A stretch of DNA of 34,530 bases from a virus: positions 1 to 34,530 of IMG/VR virus record IMGVR_UViG_3300031977_002915, one strand, 5' to 3'. Below, piece by piece: positions 1,890-19,485 of this stretch (position 1 is its first letter; each line of letters opens with the position of its first letter). A model generated the notes under the pieces. The model was not told where the DNA came from, did no database searches, and saw only the letters and a program-made list of their open reading frames with translations. Made by a program: the position numbers and the translations under genes.

Positions 1890-2444
1890 TTAGGCCGCGG
1901 CCGGGGTCTGCCAGGCCTTGGACAGGTCGTCGCGGTAGGCGTCGTAGGCCTTCTGCGAGGTCGCCTGATCAGACTTGCCGGACAGGCCATCCCGGATCAC
2001 GTCGCGAACCGGGTCGCCATGAGCATCCGAGGTCGGGACCAGGGCCTTGAAGGCGCCGGCGATGGCGTCGTCGCTCATGTCCTTGGCCGCATCGCCCAGC
2101 TTATGGGTGACAGCGGCGCGGCGGATTTCGGCCTCGGTCTTGCCGGCGCCGTCGAAGGTCTCGCCGACGATCTTCTGGGCGACGCCCAGGACCACGGCGC
2201 GCTGATCGGCGAGCTGCTGCAGCTTGGCCGGGGTGACCTCGGCGTCCTTCAGCTTGGCGTTCAGGCCCGCGATCTCGCCGTCCTTGGTGGCGAGTTGGGC
2301 GGTGAGTTCGCCGATCTTCGCCTGGTCCTTGGTCTGGGAGTCGGTCAGGCCGGTAATCTGGCCCAGCAGCTTGGTGATGGCGGCCTCAGCCGCGTCGGTG
2401 ACTTCGACCATGAGGCCGTCCACCAGGATCGTCTTCGTCGCCAC
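1890..2444 (-). CDS. Nested in-frame scaffold protein (internal GTG start)
   Basis: Inside the DUF2213 gene, codon 187 is GTG, preceded at 8-nt spacing by AAAGGAGAT, a better ribosome site than most in the window. Translation from here would give a 184-residue protein consisting only of the coiled-coil and tail portion. This copies the arrangement in phage lambda, where the scaffold Nu3 is read from an in-frame start inside the protease gene C. The start and ribosome site are seen directly. Expression as a separate protein is inference. Confidence 0.55.
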   Translation of the reverse strand: MATKTILVDGLMVEVTDAAEAAITKLLGQITGLTDSQTKDQAKIGELTAQLATKDGEIAGLNAKLKDAEVTPAKLQQLADQRAVVLGVAQKIVGETFDGAGKTEAEIRRAAVTHKLGDAAKDMSDDAIAGAFKALVPTSDAHGDPVRDVIRDGLSGKSDQATSQKAYDAYRDDLSKAWQTPAAA

Positions 2445-3002
2445 GGTCTTATCTCCTTTGGCGTTGCGGTTGTCTCCGAAGCGGAGCTCGGGGCCGCCCC
2501 GCGCCTTGGCGCAAAGGGCGATGTGGTTGGCGCGGATGTTGCGCTGGACGGCGTCGTAGGCCTGGCCGTCGGGGGTCTCGCCCGCGTCGAAGACCAGATC
2601 GCAGGTGTATCCGACTGACAGCTCGCGGCGGCCGGCCTCGAAGTCTGCGATAGCGCCCGCATCCATCAGGGTCAGGGGGACGCGGACGAACTCGCCGTCA
2701 CGGGCGACGTCGCCACCAGCCAGCCCAACGGCGTGCTTCTTCCAGTTATCGGCCGTCACCATCTCCGTCGGGTGGTCAACGGTCATGGGGCGGAAGGCCA
2801 GCGAGGCCAGGGCGTCGGCGGCGAAGACCTCGGCCTCAGAGCGATAGACCCGGATCACGTCGCGGGGGTCTCGGTCGGTCAGACCAATCTCGCCGGCCCG
2901 ATAGGTCTGGATGCCGGTTCGCGAGACTTTGGCGTCGGCGACGAGATAGCCGTCACGGGTGCGGCGCGATCCGTCCAGCACCACGGCGTCGGTGAATTGC
3001 AT
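1890..3002 (-). CDS. DUF2213 protein: probable prohead protease fused to scaffold
   Basis: This is a 370-residue protein. Residues about 1-165 match the DUF2213 family, seen next to capsid genes and regarded as protease-like (YLVADAKVSRTGIQ, VYRSEAEVF, MTVDHPTEMV, GRRELSVGYTCDL). From about residue 187 it changes character to a helical, charged coiled coil (about 205-260, heptad-like SQTKDQAKIGELTAQLATKDGE) and then a flexible tail, as in phage scaffolds. The natural reading is a protease-scaffold fusion with a second internal start (see 1890-2444). It has a good GAAGGAGG ribosome site behind a 9-bp hairpin. Its place directly before the cement and capsid genes supports an assembly role. No catalytic residues can be assigned by eye. 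Confidence 0.8.
   Translation of the reverse strand: MQFTDAVVLDGSRRTRDGYLVADAKVSRTGIQTYRAGEIGLTDRDPRDVIRVYRSEAEVFAADALASLAFRPMTVDHPTEMVTADNWKKHAVGLAGGDVARDGEFVRVPLTLMDAGAIADFEAGRRELSVGYTCDLVFDAGETPDGQAYDAVQRNIRANHIALCAKARGGPELRFGDNRNAKGDKTVATKTILVDGLMVEVTDAAEAAITKLLGQITGLTDSQTKDQAKIGELTAQLATKDGEIAGLNAKLKDAEVTPAKLQQLADQRAVVLGVAQKIVGETFDGAGKTEAEIRRAAVTHKLGDAAKDMSDDAIAGAFKALVPTSDAHGDPVRDVIRDGLSGKSDQATSQKAYDAYRDDLSKAWQTPAAA
2451..2459 (-). promoter_or_regulatory. Internal ribosome binding site for the nested scaffold
   Basis: Read on the minus strand this is AAAGGAGAT, near-perfect complementarity to the 16S 3' end, 6-8 nt before an in-frame GTG at 2444 that coincides with the domain boundary of the host protein. 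Confidence 0.6.
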
Positions 3003-4543: not shown

Positions 4544-5326
4544 TCAGGCTCCACCAATCGCCGTGAGGAAGGTGTTGATGGCGTTGTGGGCCGCCAACAT
4601 CTGGGCGTCGCTTAGGCCAGCGCCGAAATGAGCCGAGGCGATCCGGCGCGACGAATAGAGACCGGGCGTTCCAAGGGAGATTGTGGCGAGCAGGCCGAAG
4701 TGGTCGCTCTCCAGGCCCGTTGAGGCGCGGGCCGGCGTCGCCAGCTTTACGCCATTCTTAAACTGGCCATATTCCGAACCCGTCAGGCGGCTATAACCCG
4801 AATTGCCCAGCGCATTGGTGATGGCCACCGTGTCTGACGCGCCCACGGCAGATCGCGTGTTGAGTTGTGCGGTTGCCTGCTGCGGAATGATCCGCTCGTT
4901 CAGGTTGCCGAACACCACCCGCGTCGCATCCCCAACGCCCTGGTTTACCCACACGGCGGCGTGGTTGCTGTTTTGGGCATAGTTGCCAGCCGCGGCGACG
5001 GGGTTGAAATTGGTGTTGAGGTAGCTTGTGGACCCGTCGCCCGTGAAACCGCGGTCGGTCGTGAAGGTCGGGCTGTTGACCGGAGTGAGATTGAAAGCCC
5101 CCGGCGCTTTCCAGTTGATCAGGGCCGCCGCAGAGGCGTGCGCGGCAAGCATGTAGAAAGCGTCCAGGCGCGACCAGACATCGGCGGCGATCAGGGCTGA
5201 GACGACCGAGTTGTAGAGCGAGCGGCGCTCCCATGCCGGGGCGCCAGCCTGTTCCATAGCCTCGAGGATCGCCTGGGTTTCGCGCAGATATCCGCCCGAC
5301 AGCACCGGGACAAGCTGCGGGATCAT
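4544..5326 (-). CDS. Phage structural-type protein, LamG/concanavalin-like
   Basis: This 260-residue protein has an N-terminal helical part (about 1-70), then beta-rich sequence resembling lectin/LamG-like jelly-roll proteins of phages (WKAPGAFNLTPVNSPTF, DRGFTGDGSTSYLNTNFNP, HFGLLATISLGTPGLYSSRR, ending AHNAINTFLTAIGG). Such proteins decorate virions or bind carbohydrate. The ATG at 5326 overlaps the upstream stop as TGATG; a GTG one codon earlier is possible. It is the partner of the 193-residue gene just upstream. The fold call is tentative. Confidence 0.65.
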   Translation of the reverse strand: MIPQLVPVLSGGYLRETQAILEAMEQAGAPAWERRSLYNSVVSALIAADVWSRLDAFYMLAAHASAAALINWKAPGAFNLTPVNSPTFTTDRGFTGDGSTSYLNTNFNPVAAAGNYAQNSNHAAVWVNQGVGDATRVVFGNLNERIIPQQATAQLNTRSAVGASDTVAITNALGNSGYSRLTGSEYGQFKNGVKLATPARASTGLESDHFGLLATISLGTPGLYSSRRIASAHFGAGLSDAQMLAAHNAINTFLTAIGGA

Positions 5327-5907
5327 CACCCGCGGACGCCTTCGATGACCGGCCAGAACTTCTCAGCCGAGGCGGGCGTGTAGGCGGCCAGGGCCTGGAT
5401 CACAAGGAAGATGGAGGTTCCCGTCACAGGGCGCAGGGTCAGGCCCGTGCCGACCACGGGAACCGCCACGCCGACCGCACCGTCAGCCGCATCGTTCCCG
5501 GCGCGATTGATCGTCACGTCCACATAGCCGGCGTAGTAGCGCATGGAATCGACGGTGAGCGCGGTCAGAGCGCCCAGGGCGCCGTTATCGCCTACGCCCA
5601 AGGTCGGGCGGCTTTCGAAGAAGTGGAGCCGAAACTGCGCGCTGGTCGTGGTGTTCGTGGACTTGGCCAGGCGGACCCGCTCGACGCGCAGGGACTGGCC
5701 AGCAGCCGCGACCGCATTCGCGATCTCGATGACGTTGGCGTCGTTGACCGACGTGTTCGCCCCGACGAGGTCGTTGGACGCATAGACTGCAGTATCGGTC
5801 GGCCGGGTCAGCTCGCCGCGCAGGACGGCGATGGAGTCGAGGCTGATCGTCGCCCCGGCCTCCCTCGGCTTTCCATCAGACCCGGTGACGATGGGAAGAT
5901 CAGACAT
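5326..5907 (-). CDS. Hypothetical phage structural protein
   Basis: This 193-residue beta-rich protein is low in charge and cysteine (LRVERVRLAKSTNTTTSAQF, RLHFFESRPTLGVGDNGALG, RPVTGTSIFLVIQALAAYTP). I do not recognise a named domain. It resembles small head or decoration-type proteins placed between portal/minor-head and capsid genes. The ATG at 5907 has GGAGG 8 nt upstream and is preferred over an upstream in-frame codon. It is followed without gap by the LamG-like gene. Confidence 0.65.
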   Translation of the reverse strand: MSDLPIVTGSDGKPREAGATISLDSIAVLRGELTRPTDTAVYASNDLVGANTSVNDANVIEIANAVAAAGQSLRVERVRLAKSTNTTTSAQFRLHFFESRPTLGVGDNGALGALTALTVDSMRYYAGYVDVTINRAGNDAADGAVGVAVPVVGTGLTLRPVTGTSIFLVIQALAAYTPASAEKFWPVIEGVRG

Positions 5908-5985
5908 GGGCGAGCCTCCAGGCATGGCGAAGGGCGCGGCGGCGGCCGGCGCGTGTGTCGGGGATGGTCGGGGCGCCGGTGTCGG

Positions 5986-6247: not shown

Positions 6248-7264
6248 TCACTGTAGGCCCGCCCGGCTGAAGGCGGAAGCGTCTCTCTCGCGAAGCTCCG
6301 GCAGGGTCAGGGTCACGCCCTTGCGGTCAACGAAGCGGTCGAGCTCGATCTCGCCGGAGCGGAACAGTTTGGCCCGGGTGGCGCCCAGGATGTCGTCTTG
6401 CACGTCCTTGGGCTGCTTGCGAAGCCATTCGGGATAGGTCTGGCGGTTGAACTCGGCCACGCCCTCAATCTTGGCGAGGACGGGGGCCGTGACGCTCCGG
6501 CATCCGACATGCGCCGGGGGCCGGGGGCCCTTGTCCACCGGGTATCGCTTTCCATCGCGGCTGGCGCAGATCAGGGTGGTCCGGCTGTCCAGGGTCGAGA
6601 CCCATTCGACCTCTTTGACGATCCCGCCAGCCTGGCGATAGGTCTCCTCGTGCGCGACGGCCGAGGTGTGTGTGATCGCCGTCCTGACCATAGCCTCGGC
6701 GCCGCGCCGGCTGATCTCCATGGCGCCGTCTCGATATCGCAGGGCTCGGGTTCCTCGGATGGCCCGGACGATCTGCGACGTGGTCTGGCCTTCGATGACG
6801 CCGGTCCTGATCGTCTCCCTGACCCGGCGCGCCGTCCCCTCCTCCGCGCCGCTCAGCCATTCCCGGAGATATCGCCCCTGGAACGGCCGGGCCTGGACCG
6901 CGGCCCAGACCATGGTCGGTTGCGGGACCGGGGAGAAGACGCCCCGGCCACCGGCGGCGCCCAGGCGGACCAAGCGGGTGGCGAACAGGGCCTCCTCGTC
7001 GGAGAGTTCGGCGAGGTCGCCCTCGAAGCGCCGGCCGATGGTCTGCCAGCCCGTGGCGATCAGGTCGCGGATCCCTTCGAGCAGGACCTCCAGGCGGCTC
7101 AGCCCAAGGGTGTCAGGCTCTGACGCCGCGATCCTGGCGACGACATCGCGCTCGACGCGATTGAGCTGCGAGATGACCCGCCTGACCACGAAGTTGCTGT
7201 AGCGGCCCAACCCGATGCGATGGCCAACAGCCAGGTCGATGATGGTCTGGCGCGGATCGCTCAC
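6248..7264 (-). CDS. Minor head protein, SPP1 gp7 / Mu gpF type head morphogenesis
   Basis: This 338-residue protein carries the C-terminal signature of the SPP1-gp7/Mu-F head morphogenesis family: AEAMVRTAITHTSAVAHEE, EVEWVSTLDSRTTLICASRDGKRYPV, then PPAHVGCRSVTAPVL (about 190-265). These proteins enter the prohead with the portal and help assembly or DNA ejection. The GTG start overlaps the portal stop as GTGA, indicating translational coupling. The gene order portal then gp7-like is canonical. Confidence 0.87.
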   Translation of the reverse strand: MSDPRQTIIDLAVGHRIGLGRYSNFVVRRVISQLNRVERDVVARIAASEPDTLGLSRLEVLLEGIRDLIATGWQTIGRRFEGDLAELSDEEALFATRLVRLGAAGGRGVFSPVPQPTMVWAAVQARPFQGRYLREWLSGAEEGTARRVRETIRTGVIEGQTTSQIVRAIRGTRALRYRDGAMEISRRGAEAMVRTAITHTSAVAHEETYRQAGGIVKEVEWVSTLDSRTTLICASRDGKRYPVDKGPRPPAHVGCRSVTAPVLAKIEGVAEFNRQTYPEWLRKQPKDVQDDILGATRAKLFRSGEIELDRFVDRKGVTLTLPELRERDASAFSRAGLQ

Positions 7265-9285
7265 TGTTCGGCGAGGCCTTCAGACCAGGCCTCGTTCAGC
7301 TCCTCGAACATCTCCGGCCCAAGCTCGATCACGCCGCGATAGGGTTCGACGGTCGCGAGGTCCAGGTCCGCGCCGGAATAGGTGATGGTCACATGAGGCT
7401 GGTACTCGGGATAGTCCCAGGTCGCGCCGGCCTTGCGGATGGTCATGTGGCGCCAGGCGAGCGCACTCGAGGCGAACATCAGGACCACGGCGCCCTTGTC
7501 GCCCAGGGCTTCGACCATGCGAGGCCCGCCGGCGCTGACCGTGAGGTTGCCCTCCTTCGTCGCGCTCCAGTCCTCCTCGACCTTCATCCAGTCCACCGGC
7601 GCCCGGCTATAGGCGACCGTGACGTGCAACTCATCGGCCGGGACCGTGGTGGTGAAGCCCTGCGACTTGGCCCAGGCGATGATCTCTGAGGCGTTCAGGA
7701 CCTCGCGGCTCACATAGAGCGTGCGTGGTTCGGCATCAGCGATCGCGGCCGCGGCCTGCGGGCCGGCTTCCTCGCCCGGCACCTCGGGGGCATCCTCGCC
7801 TTCCGGCTCATTCATCCCGCCCATGCCGCCGCCCTCTTCCTCGATGGCGGTGCGGAAGGCGTCGAAGCTCATGCCCTTGGGCAGAAGTCCGGCCTCGCTC
7901 AACCGGGTGAACAGGGCCTCTTGCGGCGCGGCCCCGGCCTGCCAGGCGGCAAGCAGCGCCTTGAACATCTCGATGGGCAGGCCGACCTTGGCGGCGGTGT
8001 CTTCCAGGGCCTTTTCGAGGCCGGGATAAACCGCGCCTTCGATCAGGGTGTTTTGCACCGCCTTGGCCAGGGCCGGCAGCGGGACCAGGCCGGAGTCGGC
8101 ATAGAGTTTGGCCGTCTCGGCGTGCTTGTGCTGGATATCGGCCTCTTCCTTCGGATCAGGCGTCTCCAGGGCGGCGAAGCGGTAATGGACCGAGGCTGGC
8201 GTCGATCCCAGTGCCGACGGGACCAGGAAGGCGTCGAGGCGGTCCAGGGCGGGCTTCAGGTCGGTTTCCTGCCGGGCCGCGATCATCTCGTCGTAGTTGT
8301 CGTTGTCGCCCTCGCCGGTCGCGTTCAGACCCTTGGCCGACGTGCCCAGCAGGCGGGTCACCGGGATGTCAGCCGCGGCGGCGACGATCTGCAGGAACTT
8401 GTCGATCAGGTCCGGCAGGCCGGTGAACGACAGCTCGCGGGTGTCCCACTCTTCAGCCGCGTCGAGGATGCGGGTGTTGAGGATCGACTTGGCGAGGTTG
8501 GCCGTGTTGAGCCGGCTGATCAGGCGAGTCTCGTACTCTGCCGAGGACAGGTTCGACGAGAGATTGGGGATCTTGAGGGTGTCGACCTTAGCCTCGTGGA
8601 TAAGGCTCGCCGTGGCGTTCTGCGCCAGGTCGGCATTGGTCACGGCGTCGCGGACGATCTGATATAGCGGATCACCCCAGAAGGTCTCTTGCGTCTGGAC
8701 CCCGACCACGCCTTCCGGCAGGGCCTGGCCGATGAAGGGGATGACGCGCGAGGGGTGGACGTTGGCCTGGCGGGTCGATCCGGTCAGCTGATAGCTCACA
8801 GGCTGGCCGAACAGAGGCGACAGCGGGTCGCGCTCGATGTCCTCGATCTGGACCTGGTGACGGGTCAGGACATGGATGTAGGACAGCCCGCCCTTGCCGA
8901 CCTGCCCAGCCGGCTCCGCGGCCTTGCCCGGCAGGCCCAGGACCAGGGCCGCGCCGCCATACAGTCGCGCCCAGAGCAGGGCCTTGCGGACCTTGGCCGA
9001 CAGGGCGAGGCGCCGCTCCTCGGCTTCGATGGCCTCGATCTGATCGCCTTCAGCCTGCCAGTTTCGCCAGGCCCGGGTCATGTCCCAGGGCGGCAGGTCA
9101 TGGATCTTTCGGACTAGCCAGGACGACCGATACGCGCTTTCGACCTCGGCGATGTTCACCGGGTTCAGCGTGTAGGTGTCGAAGCTGCGCTTATCCCGAG
9201 CCCCGCCGACGCCAGATATGACGTTCGACAGGCCGTCCATAGTCAGACCGCCAGGGCGGCCGGTGCGGCGGAAAGATGGCTGCAT
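7261..9285 (-). CDS. Portal protein (DUF1073) with C-terminal Acb1-like 2H phosphoesterase
   Basis: This is a 674-residue protein. Residues about 20-480 match the DUF1073 portal family (AYRSSWLVRKIHDLPPWDMT, ARLYGGAALVLGL, VTRLLGTSAKGLNATGEGD, YDEMIAARQE), which forms the dodecameric DNA channel. A Gly/Glu-rich linker (about 484-519) leads to a domain at about 520-674 with two HxT motifs, ELHVTVAYS (His554, Thr556) and PHVTITYSG (His631, Thr633). These are the hallmark of 2H phosphoesterases and of the anti-CBASS nuclease Acb1, which degrades cyclic-nucleotide alarm signals. DUF1073 and Acb1-like domains are known together in sequence families. GGAGG precedes the ATG. The portal role is confident; anti-CBASS activity is inferred. 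Confidence 0.88.
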   Translation of the reverse strand: MQPSFRRTGRPGGLTMDGLSNVISGVGGARDKRSFDTYTLNPVNIAEVESAYRSSWLVRKIHDLPPWDMTRAWRNWQAEGDQIEAIEAEERRLALSAKVRKALLWARLYGGAALVLGLPGKAAEPAGQVGKGGLSYIHVLTRHQVQIEDIERDPLSPLFGQPVSYQLTGSTRQANVHPSRVIPFIGQALPEGVVGVQTQETFWGDPLYQIVRDAVTNADLAQNATASLIHEAKVDTLKIPNLSSNLSSAEYETRLISRLNTANLAKSILNTRILDAAEEWDTRELSFTGLPDLIDKFLQIVAAAADIPVTRLLGTSAKGLNATGEGDNDNYDEMIAARQETDLKPALDRLDAFLVPSALGSTPASVHYRFAALETPDPKEEADIQHKHAETAKLYADSGLVPLPALAKAVQNTLIEGAVYPGLEKALEDTAAKVGLPIEMFKALLAAWQAGAAPQEALFTRLSEAGLLPKGMSFDAFRTAIEEEGGGMGGMNEPEGEDAPEVPGEEAGPQAAAAIADAEPRTLYVSREVLNASEIIAWAKSQGFTTTVPADELHVTVAYSRAPVDWMKVEEDWSATKEGNLTVSAGGPRMVEALGDKGAVVLMFASSALAWRHMTIRKAGATWDYPEYQPHVTITYSGADLDLATVEPYRGVIELGPEMFEELNEAWSEGLAEQ

Positions 9286-9295
9286 CTGCCCTCCG

Positions 9296-10519
9296 TCAGG
9301 CCATGGCGTTGATGTGGTAGATCGTGCCGCTGAGCTTCAGGTCGGTGATGGCCCAGACCAGGGCGTCGAGGCGGTTGGGCGAGTCGTCGCCCTGGTAGCC
9401 GCCTGGGGTGGTCATCAGCAGCTCGGCCTCCATGAGCGGGAACTGCTCGCGGTGGCGGATCAGGTCCTGGTCGTACAGGGCGGCCACCGGCTCGGCCCGG
9501 ACGTGCTTGCCGCGGCTGGCGGTCACCATCACGACGCGGGTCTTGACCCCGGCGCTGCGGAGCGTGCTTTCGACCATGTCACCGCCGAAGTTCTTTTCGG
9601 CCACCACGCAATCGGCTTTCCATCGGTCAGCCGCCTTGGCGACTGCGGTGGCCCAGGCCAGAGGGCTTGAGGCGGGACAGGTGGCGTCCTCCAGGACAAT
9701 CGCCCCGTCGCCATATTCAGCCGCGACCACGATCCCGACGTCGTCACCCCCGCCAGAGGGGTCAACGCCGACCACGACGCGGCCCCATCCGTCCTCGGCC
9801 AGCCGGCCCATGTGCCAGGCCCGGTCCAGGCCATCGCGGTTCCAGATCGCCCCCTGGACCGACGGCATGTAGCCGCCAAGCCAGATCCAGATCGCCCGCA
9901 GTTTGTCCTTGGCGAAGTCCAGGGCCATCAGCTCGGCCAGGGCCTCGGGGAAAAACGGGTTCTGATCGTGGTTGATCTTGCGGACGATGGCCCGCTTGGG
10001 CTTCACCGGGCCGCGGAAGAAAATGTCGATGGGGTCTGTCGCCAGCCTGGGGTTCCAGATCGCCCACAGCTCTGAAATCGGGGTCCGCAGGATGGTCGGG
10101 AGCAGGACGTCCATCGAGGCTTGGCGCACCTCTTGCGCCTCCTCCAGGATGGTCAGGCCCGCGCCCTCCAGGGACTTGATGCCCTCCGGCTTGTTCCCCT
10201 TCCAGAGGCCGATGAACATGATCTTCTGGCCGCCGCGACCGATGAAGGCGCCATCGACCTCGCGGAAATAGGTGTTGAGCAGGCCGTAGTGCTCAAGCCG
10301 GTTCCTCACCAGCTCCAGCGACGACTCCTTCAGGTTCGCCATGATCTCCCGCAGGAAGACCACGCGGAGCTTTGGCGTCGTCACGGCATGGAAGATCGCC
10401 GCGTTGACGAACTCCCAGGACTTGGCCGAGCCCCGCCCCCCGAACGCAGCCCGGTAGCGGTATGAGCCCAGCGGCGTCTCGGTCAGGAACCGAAAGGCCG
10501 GGATCGGCTCATAGATCAT
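9296..10519 (-). CDS. terL: Terminase large subunit
   Basis: This 407-residue protein is the DNA-packaging motor and headful or cos nuclease. The N-terminal ATPase has a Walker A-like GGRGSAKS (27-34) and a Walker B LTILEE (122-127). The C-terminal RNase-H-like nuclease begins with VVVGVDPSGGGDD and contains further acidic residues (VVAEKNFGGDM, PNRLDALVWA). Length and motifs fit PBSX/SPP1-type large terminases. The ATG overlaps the small-subunit stop as ATGA; the portal starts 10 bases downstream. Confidence 0.93.
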   Translation of the reverse strand: MIYEPIPAFRFLTETPLGSYRYRAAFGGRGSAKSWEFVNAAIFHAVTTPKLRVVFLREIMANLKESSLELVRNRLEHYGLLNTYFREVDGAFIGRGGQKIMFIGLWKGNKPEGIKSLEGAGLTILEEAQEVRQASMDVLLPTILRTPISELWAIWNPRLATDPIDIFFRGPVKPKRAIVRKINHDQNPFFPEALAELMALDFAKDKLRAIWIWLGGYMPSVQGAIWNRDGLDRAWHMGRLAEDGWGRVVVGVDPSGGGDDVGIVVAAEYGDGAIVLEDATCPASSPLAWATAVAKAADRWKADCVVAEKNFGGDMVESTLRSAGVKTRVVMVTASRGKHVRAEPVAALYDQDLIRHREQFPLMEAELLMTTPGGYQGDDSPNRLDALVWAITDLKLSGTIYHINAMA

Positions 10520-15716: not shown

Positions 15717-15910
15717 CGGCTCCACCCCTCACCCAAGCCTCGCTGGCGGGCTCTCTCGACAATGAAGCCCTTCAGAAGCTCGATCTCAGCCAGGGCCATG
15801 TTCAGGCCTCGCTGGTCGAGGATGGCCTGCATCGCGGCCCGGGCCTTGACGACTTCAAGGTGGAAGACTGTGGCCTCGCGTTCGGCTTGTTCTTGGGGGG
15901 CGGGGTTCAT
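15713..15910 (-). CDS. Small helical hypothetical protein
   Basis: This 65-residue charged helical protein (EQAEREATVFHLEVVKARAA, ALAEIELLKGFIVERARQRG) sits between the two methyltransferase genes, with ATGA overlaps on both sides. It may be a coiled-coil accessory. No family is recognised. Confidence 0.65.
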   Translation of the reverse strand: MNPAPQEQAEREATVFHLEVVKARAAMQAILDQRGLNMALAEIELLKGFIVERARQRGLGEGWSR

Positions 15911-17925
15911 GCGGCGGCCCTCCGCTCCGGAAGCGTCATCCAGGTCAGGTTCGCCCGCAGCGTCGCCTCGGCCGGCGGCGGGCTGACGCTGTTGCCGGCC
16001 ATGCTGGTCTGGGCGGTCTTGGTGACGGCCTCGCCCGCCGCTGTGCGGTCGATGATGTAGTCCGGCGGGAAGCCCTGGGCGTTGAACAGCTCCCGCGGGA
16101 CCAGCATCCGCATGCCGATGTCAGCGATCTGCCAGACGGTCCCGGCCAGGATCACCAGGCCGAACCGCAGCCGGCCCATGGGTGTGGCGACGGGATCAGC
16201 CCACTCGCTCTCGCTCGGCTCGCCGAAGTGGTGGAACAGGAACTCCAGCACCTGCCGTCGGCGGCGGCCCGCATGGGCCTCAACCGCCTCGAGGTGGACG
16301 TCCACCAGCCGCTGAGTGCAGCCCTTCCCCACGATCGTCGAGACAGGCGCAACGGGGGAATGGCCGACCATGCCGGTGTTGGCCTGCTCCAGGAAGGCGG
16401 CGTTCAGGCCGAAACGGGCCTTGGCCGTCGCCGTGTCCAGGGGCTCGGCTGGGTCGCTGGGGACGCCCGTGGCGTAATACTTGTCGATGCAGCCGGCCAC
16501 GACGCCCTGATGGCCGCGTCCAGTGACCGTGCGCGCAGGATCGGCGGCGGCGGCGCCGACGTCGCGGGTGTTGGCCTGTTCCAGATAGACGGCCGCAAGT
16601 CCCGTCTTGCCCCCATCGCCGTCCGTCATCACCGTCGGGGCGGGATCGTCCAGGCTGCGGCCGCTCACCGTCGAGCCGAACTGCCGGGTGAGATATGCCG
16701 CCACCTCATAGTGCCGCGGGGCGCCGGCCATGACGGTGACCAGCGGATCGTCAGGCGAGGCGCCGACGCCGTTCTGGTTCATCTTCTGCAGGCAGACGGC
16801 GGCCAGGTCCCCGCCATTGCCGGTCGGCACCACCGTCGGATAGGGCTCGGCGGCGTGCAGGGCCCGCGGCTCTTGGCCTTCGCGTTCGCCGTACCGGGGG
16901 ACCAGGGTCGGGGCGATCACCGAAAACTCGCCGCGATTGGCCGTCGTCACCGTTTTCAACGGCTCGCGCGGATCGTGGACGCGAGCAGGACTGGTCCCAT
17001 GGGTGATCGTGGTCAGGTGCGGGCTGGCAAGCGCCAGCTCCCCCCGGTTCGCCCCCGTGACGGTCCGCAGCGGATCATCCAGGTCATGGATGGGCCGCTC
17101 GCCGCCGTGGGTGACCGGGACGATGAACGGCGCGGGGCTCTCGATCACGAAACGGCGGATGCCCTTGGCGATGCGGGCCAGGGTCTTGTCGGCCAGGGCC
17201 TTCTTGCGGTCGAAGATCGACGGCGTCGGTATCGACCAGTCCAGGATCTCGGCGGCCGCGCGCCAGGGCTTCAGGTCCCGGCCGAACAGGTCGCCCCTGG
17301 CCAGGGTCGCCCGGCTGGCGTGGCTGGGCGCCGGCCAGATGATCCGCTCGCCATCATTGCGGGCGATCAGGAACAGGCGCTTGCGCGTTGTCGGCGCCCC
17401 ATAGTCGGCCGCCGTCAACTCCCGCCACTCGACGCGATAGCCCAGGGCCTCCAGGCGAGACACCCAGCGGCGGAAATCCAGGCCCTTGCGGTCGGGGCAC
17501 GGCTTGCCGTCCTCCAGCACCGGTCCCCAGTCCTGGAACTCCTCGACATTCTCCAGGTGGATCAGACGCGGGCGGACCTTCTCGGCCCAGATCAGGCCCA
17601 CATCAGCCAGGCTGCGGATGCCCTTCTCGACCGGCTTGCCGCCGCGGGCCTTGGAGAAATGCGTGCAGTCCGGGCTCATCCACAGCAGGCCGACCCGACG
17701 CAGGACCCCGCCGAAGGTGCAGGCCTCCACCGGGTCCACCTCGCGCACGTCGCAGGTGTAGTGCCGCGTCGTCGGGTGATTGGCCTCATGCACCCCGATG
17801 GCCGTAGGGTTGTGGTTCACCGCCACGTCCGGATGACGCCCGGTGGCGTTCAGGATGGCGGTTGAGGCGCCTCCGCCGCCCGCGAAAAGGTCGACGATCA
17901 GCTCGTCGTGGTGGAGCGCGCTCAT
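15907..17925 (-). CDS. C5-cytosine DNA methyltransferase with a long internal repeat array
   Basis: This 672-residue enzyme has the C5-methyltransferase motifs in order: I VDLFAGGGGAS (11-21), IV with catalytic Cys87 in SPDCTHFS, VI LENVEEF (124-130), VIII RKRLFLIA (181-188), IX VPRELFNAQGFPPDYI (609-624) and X GNSVSPP (644-650). Motif IV has PDC instead of the common PC. Between motifs VIII and IX, residues about 275-550 are made of eight degenerate units of 32-39 residues, each starting near (D/E)P-x-x-T-V (283, 320, 359, 392, 426, 461, 493, 525). This is the target-recognition position. A ninth related motif is near 576. The start overlaps the upstream stop (ATGA). It has no adjacent restriction nuclease. 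Confidence 0.9.
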   Translation of the reverse strand: MSALHHDELIVDLFAGGGGASTAILNATGRHPDVAVNHNPTAIGVHEANHPTTRHYTCDVREVDPVEACTFGGVLRRVGLLWMSPDCTHFSKARGGKPVEKGIRSLADVGLIWAEKVRPRLIHLENVEEFQDWGPVLEDGKPCPDRKGLDFRRWVSRLEALGYRVEWRELTAADYGAPTTRKRLFLIARNDGERIIWPAPSHASRATLARGDLFGRDLKPWRAAAEILDWSIPTPSIFDRKKALADKTLARIAKGIRRFVIESPAPFIVPVTHGGERPIHDLDDPLRTVTGANRGELALASPHLTTITHGTSPARVHDPREPLKTVTTANRGEFSVIAPTLVPRYGEREGQEPRALHAAEPYPTVVPTGNGGDLAAVCLQKMNQNGVGASPDDPLVTVMAGAPRHYEVAAYLTRQFGSTVSGRSLDDPAPTVMTDGDGGKTGLAAVYLEQANTRDVGAAAADPARTVTGRGHQGVVAGCIDKYYATGVPSDPAEPLDTATAKARFGLNAAFLEQANTGMVGHSPVAPVSTIVGKGCTQRLVDVHLEAVEAHAGRRRRQVLEFLFHHFGEPSESEWADPVATPMGRLRFGLVILAGTVWQIADIGMRMLVPRELFNAQGFPPDYIIDRTAAGEAVTKTAQTSMAGNSVSPPPAEATLRANLTWMTLPERRAAA

Positions 17926-18554
17926 GCGGCAATCTCTCTGTTCAGGGCTTCGTTCAGCCGCTCCAGATCCACGTCGAACAGCTCGGCGAAATCTTCGGCG
18001 CTCAGGCCCTTGGCGATCTGCTGGCGGGCGCGGGCGAGCAGTTCCGGGGTGATGGGCTTGAGGCGGATGATCTGGACGCCGTTGCCGACGTTCTGCAGCG
18101 TGGCGCCCCGGGGGATGGCGCGACCCTTAGGCCTGGCTTCCTGGCGCCTGCGGACCTCTGCGATAGTCTTCGGGGGCGCGACAGGCGCGATGGGGGCGGC
18201 TTGGCGCTCTGGGATAGCCTGAGGGCGCGCGCCGGGCGCTGGCGGGGGCTCATGGCGCTCGGCAAGCGCCTTGGTCCTCAGCGCATAGCGGATCGCCGCC
18301 TCCGCCTCGGCTTGCGCCCTGGCGAAGGCGACAGGATTGGCGTTACGGGCCGCAGACACGACGGTCGAACGCAGGCCAACCGACTTGCACGCGGACTTCT
18401 GCATGACGCCGCATGTCGAAACGATGGCGGCGACGGCCGGCGCCAGTGATCGCCGCGCGGAACCCCAGCCGTTGGAGATGGCCACGACGGGGCAATCGCC
18501 GAACGAAGCCGCCGACGCGATGATGGCCCGGGCGTAGAGATCAGCCGAGGGCAT
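17922..18554 (-). CDS. Unknown protein with HTH-like segment, between GcrA and methyltransferase
   Basis: This 210-residue protein has an Ala-rich N-terminal region containing an HTH-like stretch (AAIVSTCGVMQKSACKSVGL then RSTVVSAARN, about 42-72), a proline/arginine-rich middle (about 100-150) and a helical C-terminal segment (ELLARARQQIAKGLSAEDFA, about 171-190) that also looks helix-turn-helix-like. The start overlaps the GcrA stop as TGATG and the end overlaps the methyltransferase start as ATGA. It may be a DNA-binding partner of GcrA. No named family is recognised. Confidence 0.65.
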   Translation of the reverse strand: MPSADLYARAIIASAASFGDCPVVAISNGWGSARRSLAPAVAAIVSTCGVMQKSACKSVGLRSTVVSAARNANPVAFARAQAEAEAAIRYALRTKALAERHEPPPAPGARPQAIPERQAAPIAPVAPPKTIAEVRRRQEARPKGRAIPRGATLQNVGNGVQIIRLKPITPELLARARQQIAKGLSAEDFAELFDVDLERLNEALNREIAA

Positions 18555-19090
18555 CAGGCGACCCTCCGAAGAGAGCGTTCCAGATCCGCCGCGCTGCGCT
18601 TTGGCTTGCCGGAATAGAACCGGGCCGCGTGTGCCTGGCAGTAGGGCGTCTCGTCCTTGACCGGGTGACAGCAGTAGAGGGTGTCGGCGCCGTCTCCGCT
18701 CACGGGCGCACAGCACTCGCCTAACTGGCGGCTGAACAGCGGCTTGGCGAGGGTGACGTCCTCGACATGGCTTGGCGGCTTGAAGCCCGGGACCGACTTG
18801 GCCTCGGCGATGTGGAGCGCGTTGCGGCCGGCGCCCTCGCGCTTCACGGCGGGGGCCTTCAGGCCAATAGCGCCGAAGCTCGGCTTGCGCGGAGGGGCGA
18901 CCTTCTTTGGGGCCTTGGCCGGGGGCGCGGCCTTCGCGCCTCCGATGGACCCTAAGCCCATGCGATGGACCTTGCCGATCACGGCGTTCCGGCTGTGGCG
19001 GCCGGTAAGCTTTTTCGCGATCTGGGAAGCCGAAAGGCCGTCCTTGTGGAGCACCTTCAGGCGCTCGGTGTCTTCGTCGCTCCAGGCCAT
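18554..19090 (-). CDS. gcrA: GcrA-family cell-cycle regulator (phage copy)
   Basis: This 178-residue protein has the GcrA N-terminal DNA-binding helix-turn-helix almost intact (MAWSDEDTERLKVLHKDGLS, then ASQIAKKL, SRNAVIGKVHRMGL, residues 1-45), an Ala/Pro/Lys linker, and a C-terminal Cys-rich part (ECCAPV, LYCCHPV, PYCQAHAARFYSGKP) matching the C-terminus that contacts sigma-70 in host GcrA. GcrA activates promoters carrying CcrM-methylated GANTC sites in Caulobacter relatives. The ATG at 19090 overlaps the VRR-NUC stop (TAATG), so upstream extensions are rejected. Encoding it beside two methyltransferases suggests reprogramming of host transcription; that is inference. Confidence 0.88.
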   Translation of the reverse strand: MAWSDEDTERLKVLHKDGLSASQIAKKLTGRHSRNAVIGKVHRMGLGSIGGAKAAPPAKAPKKVAPPRKPSFGAIGLKAPAVKREGAGRNALHIAEAKSVPGFKPPSHVEDVTLAKPLFSRQLGECCAPVSGDGADTLYCCHPVKDETPYCQAHAARFYSGKPKRSAADLERSLRRVA

Positions 19091-19485
19091 TAAGCCGCAA
19101 GCCTCCCTTTGAGGGTCAATCCGAATTTGGATAGCCAGCGCGTCAGGACCGCTTCGACCTCGTCGAGGGAGCGGCACACGGCATGGCCATGCCCGAGGGC
19201 GATGGCGCGCTGGCGAAAATCAATCTGTTCGGGGGAGAGCTGGCCGGCGCCGACCTTGAGCTCGATCCAACCCATCTGGCCCTTCGGAAGAAGGACGCCG
19301 AAGTCGGGGACGCCCGGCAGGACGCCCATGGCCTTCAGCTTGCCGGCGGTGCGCGGGTCGCGCTGCTCGCCGTTAGCCGCGTGGAATGCGACGATCTCCG
19401 CCGGGAGCGTGGCGCGCATGAAGGACCAGGCCGCCATGTGAAGGGCGGTCTCGGTCGGACGCTTAGGCTCCCGGCGGACAACCAT
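19090..19485 (-). CDS. VRR-NUC domain nuclease
   Basis: This 131-residue protein is a stand-alone VRR-NUC domain, a PD-(D/E)XK-type nuclease fold found in phage structure-specific nucleases. The active-site pattern is GVPDFGVLLP (Asp), then GWIELKVGAGQLSPEQIDF (Glu-x-Lys). The N-terminus EKRPTE-like segment and AWSFMRATLPAE fit. It may resolve branched DNA during replication or recombination. It overlaps its neighbours by TGATG and TAATG. Confidence 0.85.
   Translation of the reverse strand: MVVRREPKRPTETALHMAAWSFMRATLPAEIVAFHAANGEQRDPRTAGKLKAMGVLPGVPDFGVLLPKGQMGWIELKVGAGQLSPEQIDFRQRAIALGHGHAVCRSLDEVEAVLTRWLSKFGLTLKGRLAA

Follow-up and report, generated by a model that had tools for sequence, protein, structure and literature searches.

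The portal protein encoded by the window (the whole 34,530-base virus contig analysed here) is fused at its C-terminus to a domain of the Acb1 type, a family of 2H phosphoesterases with which other phages break down the alarm molecules of bacteria. The fusion, the predicted fold of the domain, its intact catalytic tetrad, the purifying selection acting on it, its dispensability and its repeated transfer among proteins of the head interior are all apparent from the data presented below. Activity, substrate, and the time and place of action we infer from these observations, and the explanation that probably accounts for them best is a counter-defence Acb1 enzyme tethered to the portal and acting late in infection.

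The fusion gene (674 codons; positions 7261-9285, ATG at 9285, stop at 7261) lies, like every other window feature given with coordinates here, on the minus strand, and a GGAGGG sequence 3 nt ahead of the ATG (9289-9294) is its likely ribosome-binding site. Residues 47-392 (8110-9147) constitute a Phage_portal_3 core (PF06381/DUF1073; Pfam E 6.7e-104) whose nearest solved fold is 8hds_A. Together with the position of the gene between those of the terminase large subunit and a MuF-type protein, this identifies the product as a PF06381 portal. The terminase gene is situated just upstream (9296-10519), while the MuF-type head morphogenesis gene (6248-7264) overlaps the portal stop by 4 bases; both were assigned by Pfam and PHROGs. 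The same head module contains a DUF2213 head maturation protease (1890-3002), a candidate for an enzyme cleaving the linker, and the major head protein (60-1019), as well as two ORFs of 261 and 199 aa (4544-5925) with no Pfam match of note. The PHROGs portal call agrees with Pfam, and the tail of the fusion is labelled 'RNA ligase' (phrog_755, 2.3e-22), a common label of 2H proteins that is also found on T4-like 57B genes. Genes for an integrase and a repressor of the S24 type in the window mark the phage as temperate; PADLOC returned no match. Outside the head module, the window also carries a 672-aa C5 cytosine DNA methyltransferase (15907-17925). Between its catalytic halves (around residues 8-194 and 478-671) lies a long insert in which the motif 'DPLRTVT..RGE' recurs and which is probably a target-recognition region that has grown in size. 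Beside the methyltransferase gene there is a 392-aa ORF (17922-19100) with no Pfam match of note.

A preliminary description of this DNA had proposed a portal joined by a Gly/Glu linker to an Acb1-type 2H domain, and this architecture is borne out. Both Pfam domains are present, and the nearest solved sequence, the portal of cyanophage Pam3 (8hds), matches both halves of the protein (E 1e-122). The linker (residues 485-516, 7738-7833) is rich in Gly, Glu, Pro and Ala and is predicted to be disordered, with a pLDDT below 50 in the full-length model. The Acb1 domain (PF23474) extends over residues 521-669 (7279-7725) and scores 152.2 bits against a cut-off of 27 (E 9.9e-45). An AlphaFold2 model of residues 515-674 built from 75 sequences has the 2H fold with a mean pLDDT of 91.7; in a Foldseek search its top match among all solved structures is the Acb1 of Erwinia phage FBB1 (7t26/7t27; probability 1.00, E 3.3e-9, TM scores on the target of 0.76/0.71), 7t26 being the best, and viral Acb1 predicted models are matched likewise. 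The preliminary description had named a prediction devoid of the 2H pocket as grounds for refutation, and the model instead shows the fold. Next behind FBB1 Acb1 comes a phosphodiesterase of Burkholderia phage BCSR5 (9q2y, 9q2g), which shares the 2H fold but is a stand-alone protein with about 20% identity to the window domain. A chance occurrence of HxT motifs was considered and is ruled out by these decisive Pfam and structure matches.

Residue equivalences were established by alignment with the Acb1 of T4-like phages (57B) and of FBB1, using T4 numbering (the T2 copy is one residue shorter than that of T4). The two motifs had been numbered correctly in the preliminary description: H554-V-T556 (7618-7626) aligns with H44/T46 and H631-V-T633 (7387-7395) with H113/T115 of T4 Acb1. 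The ligand contacts described for Acb1 by Hobbs et al. (2022), who tested nine homologues, comprise stacking by Y12, F107, W147 and W74 and an adenine contact by E141 (PMC9117128). Their equivalents in the window copy are Y524 for Y12 (7714-7716) and Y625 for F107 (7411-7413), both base-stacking positions, E661 for E141 (7303-7305) and W667 for W147 in the C-terminal lid (7285-7287). The W74 contact (F in FBB1), in contrast, is missing: E592 is aligned at this position, within a different loop, and none of the fused copies aligned has an aromatic residue in this column. The T4 and FBB1 enzymes also differ from the window copy in being stand-alone proteins of about 152 aa that belong to a separate clade, with about 28% identity to the window domain. 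Sequence and modelled fold thus give good support for assigning the domain to the Acb1-type 2H phosphoesterases, all four tetrad residues being in place and most of the ligand contacts kept.

The substrate is a different matter. Since the fused copies form a clade of their own and W74 is replaced by a different loop, the substrate may differ from that of T4-like Acb1. An active 2H enzyme could instead process cyclic ADP-ribose phosphates, RNA ends bearing a 2',3'-cyclic phosphate, or a cyclic nucleotide unrelated to CBASS, such as the cAAA of type III CRISPR systems. Members of the 2H superfamily do process such ends (PMC9503650), the clade is separate from that of the tested T4-like enzymes, and besides the loss of the W74 contact the E141 position is variable. 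We nevertheless regard this possibility as rather unlikely, because the general 2H profiles remain below their cut-offs on the window portal (2_5_RNA_ligase2, 23.3 bits against 27; LigT, 14.9 against 23.3) where the Acb1 profile reaches 152 bits against 27, and because the Acb1-specific contacts Y12, F107, E141 and W147 are present in the window copy.

Leaving aside the stand-alone class, we scored conservation in 188 non-identical domains. The H44 position is His in 187 of them, T46 is Thr and H113 is His in all 188, and T115 is Thr in 159 and Ser in 28. Y12 is kept as Tyr in 184, F107 is aromatic or His in every copy, and E141 is Glu in 140, being altered in about a quarter. A single copy, on a Mu-type portal of Sphingomonas sp. 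UBA1000 (L300, 2714-4702), has the first catalytic His replaced (YxT) and is possibly inactive, as far as its sequence tells. The median dN/dS was 0.12 for the Acb1 domain and 0.08 for the portal (437 pairs, which are not independent of each other), with the linker evolving fastest, and by this sequence-based measure the fused domain is under purifying selection. Some phages have portals that are 82-93% identical while their Acb1 domains are only 52-66% identical, identity dropping near the linker; portals of 93% identity can carry domains of 52%. Since nearly identical portals carry divergent domains with the break close to the linker, the domain is apparently exchanged as a cassette. Seven sister phages have portals ending at about 436-490 aa, and no Acb1 match, stand-alone copies included, was found anywhere in their genomes, which argues that the domain is an accessory enzyme and not a structural part.

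These observations bear directly on the idea that a former enzyme now serves as a plug, a symmetry element or a scaffold-binding part of the portal. Fusion to an essential head protein across many phages would be compatible with such an assembly role. However, related portals function without the domain, the tetrad is nearly invariant, the domain is swapped as a module and occurs on other head proteins, and it is unmodelled in the Pam3 portal structure, so that a purely structural role appears very unlikely. Taken together, the conservation, the low dN/dS, the cassette exchange and the absence from sister phages argue for a portal domain that is enzymatically active and dispensable.

Scanning IMG/VR for the domain first yielded 80 loci; when the window's own is included, the domain is on the same portal type at 70 of 81. 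A further scan, built on an alignment, recovered 492 stretches, and 80 were retained. Such partner proportions are biased, as portal-fused copies and those of T4 served as search seeds. Among annotated phages, the fusion is present in Pam3 and in phages of Synechococcus, Pseudomonas, Rhizobium, Sinorhizobium and Aminobacter, among others, and it is also found in bacterial genomes of Brevundimonas, Pseudomonas, Xanthomonas, Stenotrophomonas, Mesorhizobium, Rhizobium, Sphingomonas and others. Three portal families carry the domain (PF06381, PF04860 and PF06074), among them HK97-type portals (L048, L061, L288, L292) and Mu-type portals (L051, L054, L069, L166, L300). It is furthermore attached to head proteases, of the XkdF type in L049 and L178 as well as in L018, which was assigned by PHROG similarity and place, and of the DUF2213 type in L067. 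The L067 record contains a single Acb1 domain, and the portal encoded next to the L018 fusion at that locus lacks one. A MuF-Acb1 fusion was not found among the loci collected here, although MuF-2H fusions have been reported by Iyer et al.

In a tree of 95 rows, in which the bootstrap was unsettled and some branches are long, the fused copies stand apart from the stand-alone T4-like enzymes (support 95/94). The partner labels require about 10 changes, with the copies on HK97 portals forming one nested clade and well-supported branches forcing at least 2 changes for the Mu-portal label. One reading of this pattern is that of a mobile Acb1 module repeatedly attached to proteins lining the inside of the head, carried in the virion, set free in the next cell and destroying the alarm pre-emptively, before phage genes are expressed. 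That the partners are confined to proteins of the head interior is a hint of packaging and not of late expression only, but as a whole we consider this reading possible at best.

Some individual records deserve mention. In Synechococcus phage Yong-M3-232 (OM868076.1; L085, 1467-1720) the portal gene appears split in two, but this is no natural split: an exact 127-bp tandem duplication shifts the portal frame. A duplication of this size fits the difference in length from the related Ssp-JY40 record, which is shorter by 127 bases and in which the portal is a single intact ORF; it looks like a 127-mer assembly artefact. In Rubellimicrobium sp. CFH 75288 (L306, 3827-4888) Acb1 is joined to a Gp49/toxin-like domain between the genes of MuF and the major head protein, with a GRFA-type peptide between the two domains; a similar 'NPNQRRDARGRW' peptide follows Acb1 in L060. 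A portal of 906 aa (L059, 1342-4059) contains about 240 further residues beyond the Acb1 domain that are unnamed by Pfam.

The Pam3 portal is of the same type as that of the window and has the same C-terminal 2H domain behind a similarly placed linker; it differs by an overall identity of about 39% and by an HxS in place of the second HxT motif. Residues 473-616 of its sequence match the Acb1 domain, yet only 442 of its 621 residues are modelled in 8hds and the 2H domain is absent from the model. In agreement with this, 8hds was missing among the 50 structure matches listed for the Acb1 domain alone. Residue counts, rather than coordinates, thus suggest that in the Pam3 virion the domain is either mobile or cleaved off. 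The 8hds structure has 12 chains and, by analogy, the window portal would form a dodecamer at one capsid vertex; from known portal biology, fusion to the portal would then place about 12 copies of Acb1 in each virion if they are not cleaved.

The preliminary description had suggested that a fused enzyme could meet the signal upon virus entry. This part finds no support and is mechanistically demanding, since portals remain in the head after ejection and the enzyme would first have to be released at the linker; in Mu, contraction leaves the connector complex unaltered (PMC11915804). An enzyme packaged with the portal could come free at the linker, through the head protease or upon ejection, enter with the DNA and remove the alarm early; Iyer et al. 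(2022) put forward such a delivery by the virion (PMC9503650). It would fit the partners seen, since portals and head proteases are all prohead components, the disordered linker together with a head protease gene in the same cluster, and the incomplete model of the Pam3 portal. The retention of portals in the capsid following ejection (PMC11915804) nonetheless speaks against it, and an unmodelled domain may be mobile and not cleaved. A DAxPR sequence conserved ahead of the Acb1 domain came into question as a protease site, but its candidacy is undercut: PRxLYV is kept with other partners too, so that this part, at least, belongs to the domain itself. Delivery with the virion therefore seems to us a doubtful explanation.

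In the reading that we prefer, the portal holds an enzymatically competent 2H phosphoesterase of the Acb1 family on a flexible C-terminal tether, as an accessory counter-defence module with no function in assembly. Most likely, it would hydrolyse adenosine-containing cyclic di- and trinucleotides of CBASS-type systems by a metal-free mechanism relying on the two histidines. It would also most likely act late in the infected cell, from new portal subunits and procapsids, once the host alarm has been raised. The activity of T4 Acb1 emerges about 15 min into infection, along with the late CBASS response (PMC9117128), and expression of the portal late in infection would fit this timing. The link to an essential late structural gene would both retain the module in the genome and time its synthesis. 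Delivery to the next cell could occur but would require cleavage of the linker, whereas late action in the producing cell would require no added step.

Neither the architecture nor the packaging idea is new. Iyer et al. (2022) reported portal-2H and MuF-2H fusions with the same architecture and the same proposed role as in the window, packaging against immune signalling, both being mentioned in passing (PMC9503650). What is added here is the residue conservation, the structure, the domain swapping and the head-protease partners. As the proteins are mostly annotated as portal or hypothetical, a possible counter-defence role would be hidden from gene-level surveys. If the domain is active, numerous phages infecting alpha- and gammaproteobacteria or cyanobacteria, temperate as well as lytic, would embed counter-defence within an essential structural protein and so make it hard to shed by gene loss, and the possible presence of anti-CBASS activity from the very start of infection would become testable.
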